Assembly: GCA_903948415.1 (NCBI GenBank)
Contig: CAJAYO010000629.1
Location: forward strand, 1-36,855
DNA: 36,855 nucleotides
DNA from: an uncultured Opitutia bacterium
Lineage (GTDB): Bacteria; Verrucomicrobiota; Verrucomicrobiia; Opitutales; Opitutaceae
Reading direction: 5' to 3'
This document shows, in pieces, positions 1,593 to 34,399 of the stretch (its first letter is position 1; every line of letters begins with the position of its first letter). Below the pieces are notes generated by a model that did not search any database, was not told where the DNA came from, and saw only the letters and a list, made by a program, of their open reading frames with translations. Made by a program: the position numbers and the translations under genes.

Positions 1593-4500
1593 TCAGGGCA
1601 GTTCGTAGACCTCCACGAGGGCGACGCCGGTGGTGCCGTTGACGCCGCTGACTTGGGCGGTGTAGCTGCCGGGGGCGAGGGTGATGAGCAGCACGGCGTC
1701 GCGGGTGGTGGAGGCGGGCAGGGCGAAGGCGCCGACGCGGGTGAAGGTGGTGGCGAGCGCGGCGGTGGCGGCGGAGGTGGCGCTGGCGCTCCAGTTGTCG
1801 TTGGCGTAAAGCAGCGTCGAGCCCTGGTAAACCTCGAGCTGCGGATCGGCGAGGGCGCCGGCGACCCCAAAGGCGGTGAGGGCGGGGCCGATGCCGCGCA
1901 CGAGGACGGTGCGCGGGACGTTGCCGGAGATCGTGAAGCCGGCGATGAGGATGTCGCCGCCGGTGCCGATCTGGGCGCGCGCGGAGACGTTGGTGAGGCG
2001 GCTGGGCGTGGGGCTGCTGCCGGAGTCGGCGTCGTAGAGTTCGACGAGGGTGACGCCGTTGGCGCCGGTGGCGGCGGAGGCCTGGGCGGTGTAAGCGCCG
2101 ACCGGGAGGGATTGTTGGAGGGCGGCGTCGCGGCCGGCGGGGTCGAGGGGAAAGGCGCCCACGGAGGTGAAGAGGGCGGAGAGCGCGGCGCCGCCGCCCC
2201 AGTTGTCGTTGGTGGCGAGCGCGGTGGCGGCGGTGGAATTGAAGAGTTGGAGCTGAGGGTCGGCGAGGGCGCCGGGAACGCCGAGGGAGGTAAGGCCGGG
2301 GCCGATACCGCGGAGGAGGACGTTTTTGGCCGGGCCGGGACCGACGGCGAATCCAGTGATGAGCGTTTGGGCGCCGGCGCCGCCGACGGCGCGCACGGAG
2401 AGGTTGACGATGCGGCCGGGGGCCGGGGTCGCGACGGTGAGCGTGGTCGGGGCGCCGGTGGTCGAGCCCTGCGGGCCGGTGACGATCAGGCGGTAGATGC
2501 CGTTGTCGGCGGCATCGGTGCGCGGGATCGCGTAGACCGGAGACGTGGCACCGGCGAGGGTGGCGCCGTCTTTGGTCCATTGGTAGCTGAGGGGGAAGGC
2601 AGCGGCGGCGGCGGTGGCCCCGAGAGTGACCGGGGCGCCGGCCAGGGCGGCCTGGGGAGCCGGGGTGCTGACGATGGGCGCACCGGCGGCGAGGATCCCG
2701 GAGTTTTCGCCGACGAGGAAGAGCTCGTTGCCGAGAACGGCGCAGTCGAGGAGCGCGTCGCTCGTGCCGGTGAAGCGGCCGGTCCACGTCGCGCCGTCGG
2801 AGGAAACGTAATACGTGCTGCCGGGGCCGGTGGCGATCCACTGGCCGAAGGCGGCGGTGACGGAGGTGAGGGCGTCGTTGGAGAAACGGCGGTCGGTCCA
2901 GGCGGCGCCGTCGGGGGAGGTGAGCACGGTGCCGCCGGTGCCGACGGCGACGAAGCGCCCGGAGGCGAAAACCACGTCGTTGAGGTTTTCGGGCGTGAGG
3001 CCGGCGGCGGGCGTCCACGCGATGCCGTCGGGCGAAGTGAGGAGGGCGCCGGCGTTGCCGACGGCGACGAAGAGGCCGTGGCCGAAGGCGGCGCGGGTGA
3101 ACACGGTGGAGGTCGGGCCGGTGTAGCGCTGGGTCCACTCGAGGCCGTTGGCGGACGTGAAGATGCGGCCGGAGGAGGCGGCGATCACCCAGAGGCCGTT
3201 GGCAAAGTGCACGCCGTTGAGGGTGACGGTGGCGGGCGCGGTCTGGCGGGACCAGGTGGTGCCGTCGGCGGAGGACAGGAGGGTGCCGGCGTTGCCGACG
3301 GCGACGAAGCGGCCGGCGCCGAAGGCGACATCGTTCAGTTGCGTGGTGGTGCCGGAGGCGCGCGCGGTCCAGCGGGTGCCGTCGGTGGAGTGAAGAATGG
3401 AGCCGGAGGTGCCCACGGCGACGAGGGCGGAGGAGCTGGCGGCGGCGCCGCGGAGCGTGACGCCGATGGCGCCGGCGCCGGCGATGCTCTCGCGCCAGGT
3501 GATGCCGTCGGTCGAGGTGAGAAGCGCGCGGCCGAGGGTGGCGCTTTGGCCGGGGATCACATAGAGGCCGTTGCCGAAGGCGGCATTTTGGAGGTTGGTG
3601 CGGTTGCCGCTCGCACTGCGGGCGGTCCAAGTGAGGCCGTCGGGCGAGGTGCGGATGGCGCCGCCGGTGCCGACGGCGACGAACTGGCCGTTGATGAAAT
3701 TGATGCCGAGGAGGAATTCCGCGGTGGCAGCGGAGCCGCCGGTCCAGGTGGTGCCGTTGGTGGAGGTGAGCGTCTCGCCCGAGGCGCCGCCGGCGACGAG
3801 GCGGCCGGCGCCGTAGGCGATGCGCCGCATGCCGGCCGTCGGCGTGGTGAGGGACGTCCAGTTCACGCCGTCGGCGGTGCTGAAAATGCGACCGCTGACG
3901 GAGGAGACGGCGTGGAAGCGGTCGAAGGCGAAGGCGACGCCGGTGAGGTCCTCGGTGGTGCCGGCGGTGCCCGAGGTCCAGTGGATACCGTCGGTGGAGG
4001 TGCTTGTGAGGCCGGCGATGCCGACGGCGACGAGGCGGCCGTCGCCGAGGGCGAGGTCCTGGAGGCCGCTGCCGGCGTCGCGGTGGACGGTGCCGGAATT
4101 GCGGGGGGTCCAGGTGAGCGTGTCGGGCGAAGTGAAGACGGCGCCGAGACTGCCGAGCGCGACGTAGAGGCCGTTGAAGAAATGGAAACTGAAGAGGTTG
4201 TTGGCGGCGGGGAGGGTGCGGGTGGTCCAGTTGAGGCCGTCGGTGGAGGTGAGGAGGGTGCCGCGGATGCCGCCGACGAGGAAGCGGCCGTTGACGAAGA
4301 AGGCACGGGTGAGGCCGTTGCCGGTGGGGAGGGGATTGCGCCATTGCCAGCCGCCTTCGGGCGAAACGAACTGGGTGAACCCGGGGGAGGTGACGGAGCC
4401 GGCGGGATTGGTGGCGACGACGCGGTAGACGCCGCCGTTGGCGGGTTGCCAATTGCGGAGGAAATAGACGGGGCCGTCGGCGTCGGGCAGATCCACGCCG

Positions 4501-6545
4501 TCGAGTTGCCAGCGCAGCGTGAGGGGATCGGAACCGCCGGTGAGGGACGCGGTGAGGTTTTGGTTGGTGCCGGCAGGGATGGCGCGGCCGAAGGAACTGA
4601 CGATGGGGAACGGTCCGAACGAAGGGAGCGTCGGCGGCGCGGGGGTGCTGACGGCGAGGACGGCGGCGGCGCTGGTGGCGGAGCCGGCGCTGTTGGAGAC
4701 GAGGCAGCGGTAGCGGTCGCCGTTCATGGCGACGGTGAGATTGGCGATCGAGACGGCTGCGGTGGCGGCGCCCGCGACGGTGGCGGAATCGGCGAGGCCG
4801 GTCCAAGTCGTGCCGCCGTCGGTGGAGCGTTGCCAGGCGAAGGTGGTGGCGGGATTGCCGCGGGCGAGGACGGCGAAGGTGGCGGAGTTGCCGGGGAACT
4901 GGGTTTGGTTTTCGGCCTCCTGCACAATCGCGGCGGCGAGGGGGGCGGCCGGGGCGGGGACGGTGCCGGTGACCGCGAAGGCGCCGATGCTGCCGTAGGC
5001 GGTGTAACCGGTCGGCTGATTCGCGAGCGGGGTGGCGACGCCGGTGCCGGCGACGCGGAGAAGGTAGGTGCCGGCGGGAAGAGTGATCGAGAAGCTGGCG
5101 GACGGGGAATCGGGCGGATCGGAGCGGGCGATCACGGTGCCGGACGCATCGCGCAGCTCGGCGACGACATCGAGGGAGGTTCTGTTGGAGAGGACGGTGG
5201 GGTTGACCAACGCCCCGATCTGCAGGGCCACGGGGCCGCCGGCGGTGGTGAACGCAAACGTGTCGGTGTCGCCGGTGGTTTCGAGCAGGCCGCGGTGGGA
5301 GACGGCGGCGCCGTTGACGATCAGGGGCGTGGCGGCGGCGTCAGTGCCGGCGTGGTCGTCGGGGCGGACGGTGAGTTTGGCGGCGATGATGGCGAGGTCG
5401 TCCTCGGGGTTGTTGGCATCGAAATATTCGCCCTTGGACCATTGGATCACGTTGCGCGTGGCGCTGCCCATGATCGGGCCCCAGGAGGTTTCGCCGCCGC
5501 CGTGGCCGGCGTAGTATTCGACGGCGGAGGTACCGTCGTGGCTCAGGCCCATTTGGTGGCCGAGCTCGTGGGCGGCGACGCGCGCGATCTGGCTGTCGGT
5601 GAGGGTGGTTTGGTAAACGAAACAAATGTTGTAGGTGGTGGCGAAGGACGCCGCGCCGAAGAAGTTCAGATAGGCGACGCCGCTGGCGGTGGCGGAGACG
5701 GGGGTGCGGACGCCTTTGGCATCGCGCTCCTGGGTGATGAGGACGCGCGCGGTCTGGTTGGTGAAGACGGCGGGTGGCTCGGTCGTGACGTCGACGTCGA
5801 AGGCGCGGAAGGCCTCGGCGACCCGTTCCCAGATGAGGACGATGCCGGCCTGCTCGGCCGGGCTGAAGGAGCTGGTGTTGGCATCCCGGTCGTAAGGCGT
5901 GCAGGTGTAAGAGGCCTGGGCGTCGGCGCCGGAATTCCAGGCGGTGCCGGTGACGATGTGGCCGTTGAAATCGAGATAGATGGTCCGCGCGGAGCCGGGT
6001 TTGCTGTGGCGGACGGGTGGGTTCTCGATCGGAACGGCGACGTCGAATCCGTCGACCGAACCGGCGGTGGCGCGGGGCGGGAGGAGGCCGTCGTCGGCGG
6101 CGAGGCCGGCGGATTTTGCGCAGGCGAAGGAGAGTGCGCCCTCGGCGTCGACGTGCAGGGAGGCGACGTTGTTGAGCGGAACGTGCAACGCGCCGAGCGT
6201 GGCGAGGGCGCGGGCGCGGGCGGGGGCGGAGACCGCGAGGAGTTCGTCGCGGAAGCGGCCGGCGGGGATGTCGGCCAGGGTGACGGGACCGTTGGCGCCG
6301 AAGACGAGGATGCGGGGGAAAGCGGGGCCGGGCGGGCGGGTGGGCGCGGCGGCTGGGGCGGATGCGGCGGCGGCGGCGGGGTTCACGGTCGGCGCGCCGG
6401 CGGAGGGCGCGGGGGTGAAGGCGGTGGACGGCGGAGTGGTGGCGTCCGCGGGCCGCAGCGGCGACGGCGAGACGAACCAGAGGATGGGCGTGAGAACTGC
6501 GGCGACGACGAGAACGCTGAGGCCGAGTTTGGCGGACGGTGTCAT
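1593..6545 (-). CDS. Giant secreted multidomain protein: metzincin-type zinc metalloprotease, Ig-like domains, ~14 propeller-type repeats, tandem C-terminal module
   Basis: 1650 aa; N-terminal hydrophobic segment; HELGHQMGLSHDG with downstream GPIMGS; Ig-like segments (NSATFAVLARGNPATTFAWQRS...YRCLVSNSAGS); repeated (S/T)xDGxxWTxR...GxFVAVGxxGxxxT units; two C-terminal RIVNLSxR...NDNWGG...ALVEVYE modules. Confidence 0.85.
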   Translation of the reverse strand: MTPSAKLGLSVLVVAAVLTPILWFVSPSPLRPADATTPPSTAFTPAPSAGAPTVNPAAAAASAPAAAPTRPPGPAFPRILVFGANGPVTLADIPAGRFRDELLAVSAPARARALATLGALHVPLNNVASLHVDAEGALSFACAKSAGLAADDGLLPPRATAGSVDGFDVAVPIENPPVRHSKPGSARTIYLDFNGHIVTGTAWNSGADAQASYTCTPYDRDANTSSFSPAEQAGIVLIWERVAEAFRAFDVDVTTEPPAVFTNQTARVLITQERDAKGVRTPVSATASGVAYLNFFGAASFATTYNICFVYQTTLTDSQIARVAAHELGHQMGLSHDGTSAVEYYAGHGGGETSWGPIMGSATRNVIQWSKGEYFDANNPEDDLAIIAAKLTVRPDDHAGTDAAATPLIVNGAAVSHRGLLETTGDTDTFAFTTAGGPVALQIGALVNPTVLSNRTSLDVVAELRDASGTVIARSDPPDSPSASFSITLPAGTYLLRVAGTGVATPLANQPTGYTAYGSIGAFAVTGTVPAPAAPLAAAIVQEAENQTQFPGNSATFAVLARGNPATTFAWQRSTDGGTTWTGLADSATVAGAATAAVSIANLTVAMNGDRYRCLVSNSAGSATSAAAVLAVSTPAPPTLPSFGPFPIVSSFGRAIPAGTNQNLTASLTGGSDPLTLRWQLDGVDLPDADGPVYFLRNWQPANGGVYRVVATNPAGSVTSPGFTQFVSPEGGWQWRNPLPTGNGLTRAFFVNGRFLVGGIRGTLLTSTDGLNWTTRTLPAANNLFSFHFFNGLYVALGSLGAVFTSPDTLTWTPRNSGTVHRDAGSGLQDLALGDGRLVAVGIAGLTSTSTDGIHWTSGTAGTTEDLTGVAFAFDRFHAVSSVSGRIFSTADGVNWTSLTTPTAGMRRIAYGAGRLVAGGASGETLTSTNGTTWTGGSAATAEFLLGINFINGQFVAVGTGGAIRTSPDGLTWTARSASGNRTNLQNAAFGNGLYVIPGQSATLGRALLTSTDGITWRESIAGAGAIGVTLRGAAASSSALVAVGTSGSILHSTDGTRWTARASGTTTQLNDVAFGAGRFVAVGNAGTLLSSADGTTWSRQTAPATVTLNGVHFANGLWVIAASSGRIFTSANGLEWTQRYTGPTSTVFTRAAFGHGLFVAVGNAGALLTSPDGIAWTPAAGLTPENLNDVVFASGRFVAVGTGGTVLTSPDGAAWTDRRFSNDALTSVTAAFGQWIATGPGSTYYVSSDGATWTGRFTGTSDALLDCAVLGNELFLVGENSGILAAGAPIVSTPAPQAALAGAPVTLGATAAAAAFPLSYQWTKDGATLAGATSPVYAIPRTDAADNGIYRLIVTGPQGSTTGAPTTLTVATPAPGRIVNLSVRAVGGAGAQTLITGFAVGPGPAKNVLLRGIGPGLTSLGVPGALADPQLQLFNSTAATALATNDNWGGGAALSALFTSVGAFPLDPAGRDAALQQSLPVGAYTAQASAATGANGVTLVELYDADSGSSPTPSRLTNVSARAQIGTGGDILIAGFTISGNVPRTVLVRGIGPALTAFGVAGALADPQLEVYQGSTLLYANDNWSASATSAATAALATTFTRVGAFALPASTTRDAVLLITLAPGSYTAQVSGVNGTTGVALVEVYELP

Positions 6546-31762: not shown

Positions 31763-34399
31763 ATGATCATGAAGCATCCGTCCCTCTCTGTCTTCACCTC
31801 GGTCGTATCGCGGTTTTTCCCGTTGGCGCGCTCCCTCCGCCGGCTCGGCGCAGGCCTCGTGGCCGGCGGATTCGCGGGGACCCTGTGGGCCCAACCGCTC
31901 GCAGTGACTACGTTTGCCGGACAGGCCGGCGCGCGGGGGAACGTCGACGGCCCAGGCACGGCAGCGCGGTTTTTCGGCCCGAGCGGGATCATGGCCGACG
32001 GGGCGGGCGGATTGTACGTCGCCGACGCTTTGAATAACACGATCCGCCGCGTGACCTCTGCCGGCGTGGTGAGCACCGTCGCGGGCGGAAACGTCAACGA
32101 AATCACCAATTTGCCCGAGCGCGGCTACGCCGACGGGGCGGGCCGCAACGCCCTGTTTTCGACCGGTTTTTCCGTGACCGCGGGCACCGACGGACCGCTC
32201 ATCGTGTCGAATTACGGCGCGCTGACGATGGCGCTGGACGGTGCGGGCAATCTTTACGTGGCCGACACGTTGAACCACGTGATCCGGAAGATCACGTCAG
32301 GCGGGGTGGTTTCCACTTTCGCGGGCGCCGCAGGCAGTTCGGGCAGTGTGGATGACGTGGGCGCCGCTGCGAAATTTTCCTCCCCCTATGGGGTCGCGGT
32401 CGATCCGACGGGAAATATTTACGTGGCCGATGCGGGCAACAACACGATCCGCAAGATCACGCCGGGCGGCGTGGTCAGCACGTTCGCCGGTCGCGACGGC
32501 TCCAATGCCGGCGCTGCAGACGGTAACGGCACCAACGCGCGTTTCAATAACCCGAGCGGGCTCGCCGTCGACGGGGCGGGCAACATTTACGTCTCCGACA
32601 CCAACAACCATACGGTTCGCAAAATCACCGGTGCGGGCGCGGTCACCACGCTGGCCGGATTTGCGGGTGCGAAGGGCAGTTCGGACGGCCTGGGTTTGAG
32701 TGCCCGTTTCAGCGGCCCAACCGGTATTTCGGCGGACCGCACCGGCACGCTTTACGTGGCTGATACGGGCAACGCCACGATTCGCAAAATTTCGCCGGGA
32801 GGATCGGTGAGCACGATCGCCGGATTTGCGGGGGTCGCGGGCGCCGCCGAGGGGACGGGCAACGCCGTTCGTTTCACCACGCCCTACGGGGTCGCGGTCG
32901 ACACCGCCGGAAATGTGTTCGTCGCCGACAGCGGGAACAACGCGATCCGCAAGGGAGTGGTGGCGGCTGCGTCGTCCGGCACCGTCGCGATTCAGACCCA
33001 GCCGAAAAGCCAATATGTTAATGTCGGCACCAAAGTCGGGCTCACGGTGGAGGCGACCGGCACGCCGGCGCCGACCTACCAGTGGCGGAAGAACAATGTG
33101 GCTATCCCCGGTGCGACGACGGCGTCGCTGACCTACGCCTCGATCCAGTTTTCTGACGAAGCGAGCTACACGGTAGTCGTCACCAGCAGCACGGTATCGG
33201 TCACCAGCGCTCCCGGAGTCGTGCAGGTTTATCCGGCCAATCTTCCCATCCCCAATGTCATTTTTCGCATCCAACCTGCGGCCCAAGCTTTGTTGGTGGG
33301 CCAAAGTGCGACGTTTTTCGTGGAGGTTGTGGGAGCGGCAGTGCCCGCGTATCAGTGGCAGAAGAACGAGGTAAATATTTCCGGGGCGACGGCGGTCGCG
33401 TTCACGATTCCTGCATTGCAAGCGTCGGATGCCGGTGACTATCGGGTCGTCGTCACTGCCGGCGGAGAAGTTCAAAATTCGAGTTCGGCGGGGTTGAGCG
33501 TCGGCGGAGCGATTGTCCCCCCCCCGCCGCCCCCGCCCCTTCCGCCCCCGCCCCTTCCGCCCCCGCCGGTGCCGGTGCCGGTAGCGTTTGGCCGGATCAT
33601 CAATCTTTCCATTCTCACGTCGATTGCGACGGGCGGGGACAATTTTACGATGGGTTACGTGGTCGGCGGGAATGCGACGAGCGGAGCGAAGCCGCTCGTG
33701 ATTCGCGCGGCCGGGCCCTCCCTCGGCGCGCTCGGGGTAGGCGGCACCCTCGACGACCCGAAGTTCGAGCTTTTCGCGGGCGCGACGAAGACGGGCGAGA
33801 ACGACAACTGGGGTGGGGCGCCGCAACTCACCGCGGCACTCGCGGCCGTCGGGGCGTTCGCCTATGTGGGCCCGACCTCGAAGGACGCGGCGGCCACGGC
33901 GAACATCACCTCGCGCGACAATTCGGTCGTGGTGTCCGCGGCGGGTAGCGGCGCCGGACTGGTGATCGCGGAACTCTACGATGCGACCCCGTCGGACACC
34001 TTCGTCGCAGCGACCCCGCGGCTGATCAATGTGTCGGTGCGCAAACATCTCGGCCCGGGGTTGACGGCGGGCTTCGTGCTCGGCGGCTCGGCGGCGACGA
34101 AGGTGTTGATCCGCGCGGTCGGCCCGACGCTCGGGGTGTTTGGTGTGCCGGGAGTGGTGACCGATCCGCAGCTCACGCTTTTCAACGGGGTCTCGGTTAA
34201 GATTGGCGAGAACAACGATTGGGGCGGCACGGCGGAGCTCACCGCGGCGTTCGGGGCCGTCGGGGCCTTCGGCCTGCCGGCGACCTCGAAGGACGCGGCG
34301 TTGCTCGTGACGCTGCCACCGGGAAATTATTCCGTGCAGGCCGCGGGTACGGCGAATACCACGGGCGTCGCGCTCGTGGAGGTTTACGAGGTGCCGTAA
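31763..34399 (+). CDS. Secreted NHL-repeat beta-propeller protein with Ig-like domains, Pro-rich linker and tandem C-terminal module
   Basis: Six units of (N/T)xYVADxxNxTIRKI...GVVSTFAG; two Ig-like domains; VPPPPPPPLPPPPLPPPPVPVPV linker; two modules ending GVALVEVYEVP. Start 31763 or 31769. Confidence 0.85.
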   Translation: MIMKHPSLSVFTSVVSRFFPLARSLRRLGAGLVAGGFAGTLWAQPLAVTTFAGQAGARGNVDGPGTAARFFGPSGIMADGAGGLYVADALNNTIRRVTSAGVVSTVAGGNVNEITNLPERGYADGAGRNALFSTGFSVTAGTDGPLIVSNYGALTMALDGAGNLYVADTLNHVIRKITSGGVVSTFAGAAGSSGSVDDVGAAAKFSSPYGVAVDPTGNIYVADAGNNTIRKITPGGVVSTFAGRDGSNAGAADGNGTNARFNNPSGLAVDGAGNIYVSDTNNHTVRKITGAGAVTTLAGFAGAKGSSDGLGLSARFSGPTGISADRTGTLYVADTGNATIRKISPGGSVSTIAGFAGVAGAAEGTGNAVRFTTPYGVAVDTAGNVFVADSGNNAIRKGVVAAASSGTVAIQTQPKSQYVNVGTKVGLTVEATGTPAPTYQWRKNNVAIPGATTASLTYASIQFSDEASYTVVVTSSTVSVTSAPGVVQVYPANLPIPNVIFRIQPAAQALLVGQSATFFVEVVGAAVPAYQWQKNEVNISGATAVAFTIPALQASDAGDYRVVVTAGGEVQNSSSAGLSVGGAIVPPPPPPPLPPPPLPPPPVPVPVAFGRIINLSILTSIATGGDNFTMGYVVGGNATSGAKPLVIRAAGPSLGALGVGGTLDDPKFELFAGATKTGENDNWGGAPQLTAALAAVGAFAYVGPTSKDAAATANITSRDNSVVVSAAGSGAGLVIAELYDATPSDTFVAATPRLINVSVRKHLGPGLTAGFVLGGSAATKVLIRAVGPTLGVFGVPGVVTDPQLTLFNGVSVKIGENNDWGGTAELTAAFGAVGAFGLPATSKDAALLVTLPPGNYSVQAAGTANTTGVALVEVYEVP

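Follow-up and report, generated by a model that had tools for sequence, protein, structure and literature searches.

A divergent PPC/DVUA0089-like domain, mobile among exported proteins of the Opitutaceae and used mostly as a C-terminal pair

The window, a stretch of 36,855 nucleotides from an uncultured bacterium of the family Opitutaceae, encodes two large secreted proteins that end in two copies each of a module of about 125 aa (Table 1). The first, whose reading frame closes at position 34399, measures 876-878 aa counted from an ATG at 31769 or 31763, one of which is probably the start and gives a signal peptide. A single HMM, built at the start from the four copies in the window and then iterated with other fetched loci, matches all four at 125-167 bits each, far above chance. 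The original prediction had read a tandem module at the C-terminus of the NHL protein, running up to its stop, and the same pair at the end of the metzincin protein; both pairs are confirmed, and the residue pattern it gave for the module was correct. The upstream parts differ as it stated, with NHL and Ig domains in the first protein, and a metzincin domain (HELGHQMGLSH), Ig domains and DUF6242-type repeats in the second. The genes between the two (RND efflux, threonine biosynthesis, oxidoreductases, 2-isopropylmalate synthase-like) have ordinary functions and showed no functional link to the module. A conventional PPC-type domain also lies within the metzincin protein (4956-5303, minus strand) and is 40% identical to a domain of genome G012 that scores above the Pfam cut-off.

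Table 1. Features of the two module-bearing proteins in the window.
Feature	Position	Strand	Basis
NHL beta-propeller / Ig / module-pair secreted protein	31763..34399	+	ORF and translation; stop 34397-34399
Predicted Sec signal peptide (MIMKHPSLSV...GGFAGTLWA)	31763..31891	+	Sequence and heuristic scan; putative cleavage site
NHL repeat beta-propeller	31898..32953	+	Pfam PF01436, E 2.8e-36; approximate boundaries
Two Ig-like domains	32972..33500	+	Pfam Ig_3/I-set, two stretches; approximate boundaries
Proline-rich linker upstream of the module pair	33497..33592	+	Sequence
NHL-protein module copy A, PPC-like beta-sandwich	33593..33985	+	HMM 125 bits; AF2 tandem model pLDDT 95.9
NHL-protein module copy B, ending ...TTGVALVEVYEVP at the stop	34019..34396	+	HMM 161 bits; AF2 single model pLDDT 96.3
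Metzincin / Ig / repeat protein, 1650 aa, same C-terminal pair	1593..6545	-	ORF, Pfam
Metzincin-protein module copy A	2028..2414	-	HMM 144 bits
Metzincin-protein module copy B	1596..2000	-	HMM 167 bits

A Pfam search of the module returned no matching model, and the model for PPC, the bacterial pre-peptidase C-terminal domain (PF04151), did not match the window copies even at E<=10; it gave 11.4 bits with a class-level relative, the Pfam gathering score being 25.9. AlphaFold2 confidently predicts a PPC-type beta-sandwich for the module, modelled singly (pTM 0.90) and as a tandem pair of such sandwiches (pTM 0.92; pLDDT values in Table 1). The best solved Foldseek match of the single module is 5sv5, a 'pre-peptidase C-terminal domain' (probability 1.00, TMq 0.59, TMt 0.69), followed by domains of KP-43, Tk-SP, GOLD and ColG CBD type, and that of the pair is 5iku, the tandem collagen-binding domain of ColG (E 4e-11). 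Single-module TM-scores of about 0.6, obtained with a predicted structure, indicate a shared fold rather than close kinship. Profile comparison by hhalign against 33 PPC domains from this family of bacteria gave 92-93%, aligning D-P-x-L, N-D-x-W and P-G-x-Y of the module with the PPC core; the controls gave 7% for Ig and at most 0.3% for NHL, CHRD, and reversed and column-shuffled PPC. A calx-beta control reached 77%, which we judged a small-sample artefact (25 columns, three sequences), and a PDB sequence search yielded only weak antibody matches, dismissed as chance. The NCBIfam model for the DVUA0089 (FDP) family (NF038127) detects the module as well: the two window copies scored fall under its cut-off of 29 (21.7 and 17.3 bits), whereas two paralogues in the same genome exceed it (36.4 bits on contig C779 and 29.2 on C359), as does, at 42.6 bits, a relative belonging to a different family of the class. 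Because the predicted fold, the Foldseek matches, the profile alignment and the DVUA0089 matches agree, we call the module a divergent PPC/DVUA0089-like domain that is highly expanded in the Opitutaceae. The fold family, which the original prediction did not recognise, is a known one.

The module resembles PPC domains, the ColG collagen-binding domains and the C-terminal jelly rolls of KP-43 and Tk-SP in its beta-sandwich fold, and PPC-type domains likewise stand at the C-terminus of secreted proteins, often in tandem. Unlike PPC, it carries two insertions (RAxGPxLxxFGV and LTAAxxxVGAF), occurs in far more copies and on a far wider range of cargo, and does not clearly retain the PPC binding residues. 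In the putative counterpart of the D-x-D-x-Y motif, reported to be important in PPC binding, D49 is present in 73% of modules, position 51 is variable and positions 53-54 are L/V/I; W68, found in 96%, may be equivalent to the Y/W binding residue of PPC. The invariant positions G35, P36, G116, E121, W68 and GAF 82-84 look like structural residues. Because the module does not clearly retain the residues for PPC binding, substrate binding is not directly transferable to the module.

Two proteins in one window understated the extent of the module, which is carried by about 50 classifiable proteins of this genome (6.7 Mb in 977 contigs, 95% complete). The genome gave 94 module matches, and the HMM started from the four copies, as the original prediction had proposed, detected 107 modules after iteration on fetched loci. 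The two copies within one protein have a median identity of 47% (41 pairs of the same genome), and in a tree the A copies and the B copies are not cleanly separated into two clades. Frameshifts or stops break some copies (L010:1972-2739, L037:2265-3529), so module copies decay too. The best 80 loci in named genomes all come from Opitutaceae or from otherwise labelled Verrucomicrobia/Opitutae MAGs. Each of eight congeners has 30-68 tandem matches; numbers in the family's remaining genera range from high through low to zero, and within one genus (g16) one genome holds at least ten copies and two others none. In a phylum survey that scored ten candidates per genome, and so may miss distant forms, at least 21 of 388 genomes matched; 18 of these belong to the family, one to the order and two to other parts of the class. 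The DVUA0089 model matches more widely (37/289 genomes). Searches of phage, plasmid and viral collections found no module, and a literature search found no paper on it.

The cargoes include polysaccharide lyase 8, subtilase, matrixin, metallophosphatase/PhoD, phytase-like, YHYH and DUF1800 proteins, together with NHL, Kelch, RCC1, PQQ and delta-60 propellers, and a simple heuristic detects a signal-peptide-like start in 36 of 43 testable module proteins. When module pairs of two proteins are at least 70% identical, the remainders are unrelated in eight of nine cases, and proteins with more distant A copies tend to have more distant B copies too (r 0.38, 0/2000 permutations). We conclude from these two results that the pair moves between genes as a unit, as had been claimed from the two proteins of the window.

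The position of the module was judged in 50 proteins of the genome. It is C-terminal in 43 (34 pairs, 9 singles), always ending 1-4 residues ahead of the stop; in the other seven it lies just behind the signal peptide (four pairs, one truncated by a contig end) or internally (three). The original prediction of a C-terminal unit therefore describes the usual arrangement, but strict C-terminal placement does not hold. On contig C119, the pair forms the C-terminus of a YHYH protein, in a metallophosphatase close by it lies behind the signal peptide, and these two pairs at opposite gene ends are 69% identical. This contig (L019) holds a cluster of five module genes in genome G000, encoding the YHYH protein, two metallophosphatases, a Kelch protein and one single-copy protein, and grouped module genes also occur on G002:C51 and G008:C23. 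Further N-terminal pairs are found on one Kelch and two DUF1800 proteins, as well as in a congener, on a gene of L056.

What follows the pair varies even on one type of cargo. After a delta-60 propeller and the pair, nothing follows in L043; in G200 and G212 there is a Gly-rich, hydrophobic and basic tail (GlyGly-like, membrane-tail-like), and in L034 an Ig domain and two EF-hand-like units, which are also present downstream of the pair in L046. The latter repeated units, EF-hand/dockerin-like and placed C-terminally after Ig domains (L034:1-3888, plus strand; L046:1764-4478, minus strand), share the pattern HADTNxDxRLGLxELTRVIELYNTRNGTVRTGxY...TEDGF, to which Pfam and NCBIfam searches gave no name. 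Two reading frames of 2030 residues (L166 and L167; L237:8651-14740 and L238:7751-13840) combine delta-60 repeats, the module pair and a Ser/Gly linker with a GGGG-hydrophobic-basic end that resembles GlyGly-CTERM and has no NCBIfam match; both genomes have rhombosortase matches above cut-off. At L121:2088-5180 an internal pair precedes 232 residues with a LamG-like-looking end.

Genomes that carry the module and genomes that lack it both have exosortase, PEP-CTERM, rhombosortase and GspD-like secretins; a GspD search gave no match above the model cut-off. Exosortase (PF09721) is found in 45 of 47 genomes irrespective of the module, and is missing from the module-rich G341 and G381, which also have no PEP-CTERM matches; G021, with 57 module matches, has no rhombosortase match (TIGR03902), and G000 has none above cut-off. 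The module thus does not track exosortase, rhombosortase or PEP-CTERM. A search for the type IX protein SprA/Sov (PF14349) was negative in 47 genomes, and no control genome matched either. The gene neighbourhoods contain no recurrent neighbour common to all carriers. Histidine kinases form the largest recurrent neighbourhood cluster but are generic, and a porin-like gene that shares an operon with a module gene, present in 9 of 24 genomes with the module and 1 of 23 without, is therefore not required. A conserved group at L077:2-5810, seen also in L109, L124, L133 and L012, runs from a small upstream ORF through a histidine kinase and the porin-like gene to a module protein; its porin-like outer-membrane protein has no Pfam match. 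No co-varying partner emerged among the named candidates, and a partner gene outside them is possible.

Based on these results, we favour, with some confidence, a mobile accessory domain of divergent PPC/DVUA0089-like type that rides on Sec-exported cargoes and most likely holds them in place by binding. The module would serve mainly as a rigid tandem pair, copied onto new cargoes probably by recombination and usually at the 3' end of the gene; the cargo would leave via Sec, possibly by a further route beyond it, and the pair would then hold or position it by binding a polymer or protein of the substrate, the matrix or the cell's own surface. This role is modelled on secreted proteases whose C-terminal PPC domains stand in tandem: in E495 these domains bind protein substrates, and MCP-03 does not need them to be secreted (PMC3327674). 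By that analogy, an accessory domain for binding or attachment is the most likely and most economical mechanism.

The original prediction likened the module to C-terminal sorting or anchoring domains, and the strongest form of that idea would have a translocon or surface enzyme recognise the folded pair, then export and attach the cargo, as in type IX secretion. The likeness is real in that the type IX CTD (TIGR04183) is also a C-terminal unit common to many secreted proteins of one genome; some 50 unrelated secreted cargoes share the module, most end with it, and close relatives have it in bulk or lack it. However, it has no TIGR04183 match and is not strictly C-terminal, and pairs that are 69% identical sit at opposite ends of two genes within one cluster. 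PEP-CTERM and GlyGly-CTERM, also C-terminal features of many exported proteins in the same organisms, are handled by exosortase and rhombosortase, whereas the module has no hydrophobic helix or basic end, the last strand of C-terminal copies being followed by 1-4 residues (...VEVYEVP), and it is found alongside a GlyGly-like tail in G200/G212, independent of sorting enzymes. The beta-domain of autotransporters is a single C-terminal membrane beta-barrel; the module pair is modelled as two beta-sandwiches. Because of its position, the varied ends downstream of it, its independence of exosortase, rhombosortase and PEP-CTERM and the lack of a neighbour shared by all carriers, a sorting role is not supported, and we regard it as improbable. 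Since the pair also stands at the start or in the middle of some proteins, the module has the look of an exchangeable accessory domain, probably a binding one, rather than of a secretion signal.

Within an accessory role, cargo of such variety could not share a single substrate, and this speaks more for either a surface or matrix ligand that all have in common or a purely structural function. The former is a more specific form of the accessory-binding explanation, in which the pair would dock some 50 proteins non-enzymatically to one shared ligand of the cell's own surface or matrix, without exosortase or rhombosortase. A conserved pair on diverse cargo fits this, as do the module-rich genomes that lack exosortase or have no rhombosortase match; but no partner gene was found among the candidates, and the module-rich G053, G123 and G174 retain many PEP-CTERM proteins, so that we hold such docking to be rather unlikely. 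About as doubtful is that the pair is a structural or pro-domain which stabilises its cargo, keeps enzymes inactive until they are outside or spaces domains, perhaps being cleaved. Removal after secretion is common among classical PPC domains, for which effects on activity and stability have been reported (PMC3327674), and conservation in the module lies mainly at structural-looking positions. Against this, a large number of cargoes, being propellers or Ig proteins, contain no enzyme that could be inhibited, some pairs are N-terminal and a cleavage site is not evident.

The module is thus real and widespread in the Opitutaceae, and on present evidence it is not a new sorting system. With the name PPC/DVUA0089-like, dozens of proteins in each genome of this family gain an annotation for a module that Pfam does not model, and the shuffling of the module over hydrolases clearly exemplifies how a bacterial accessory domain spreads within a secretome. 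Should the pair dock its cargoes to the surface, this would explain how these bacteria retain their enzymes without sortase-type machinery.
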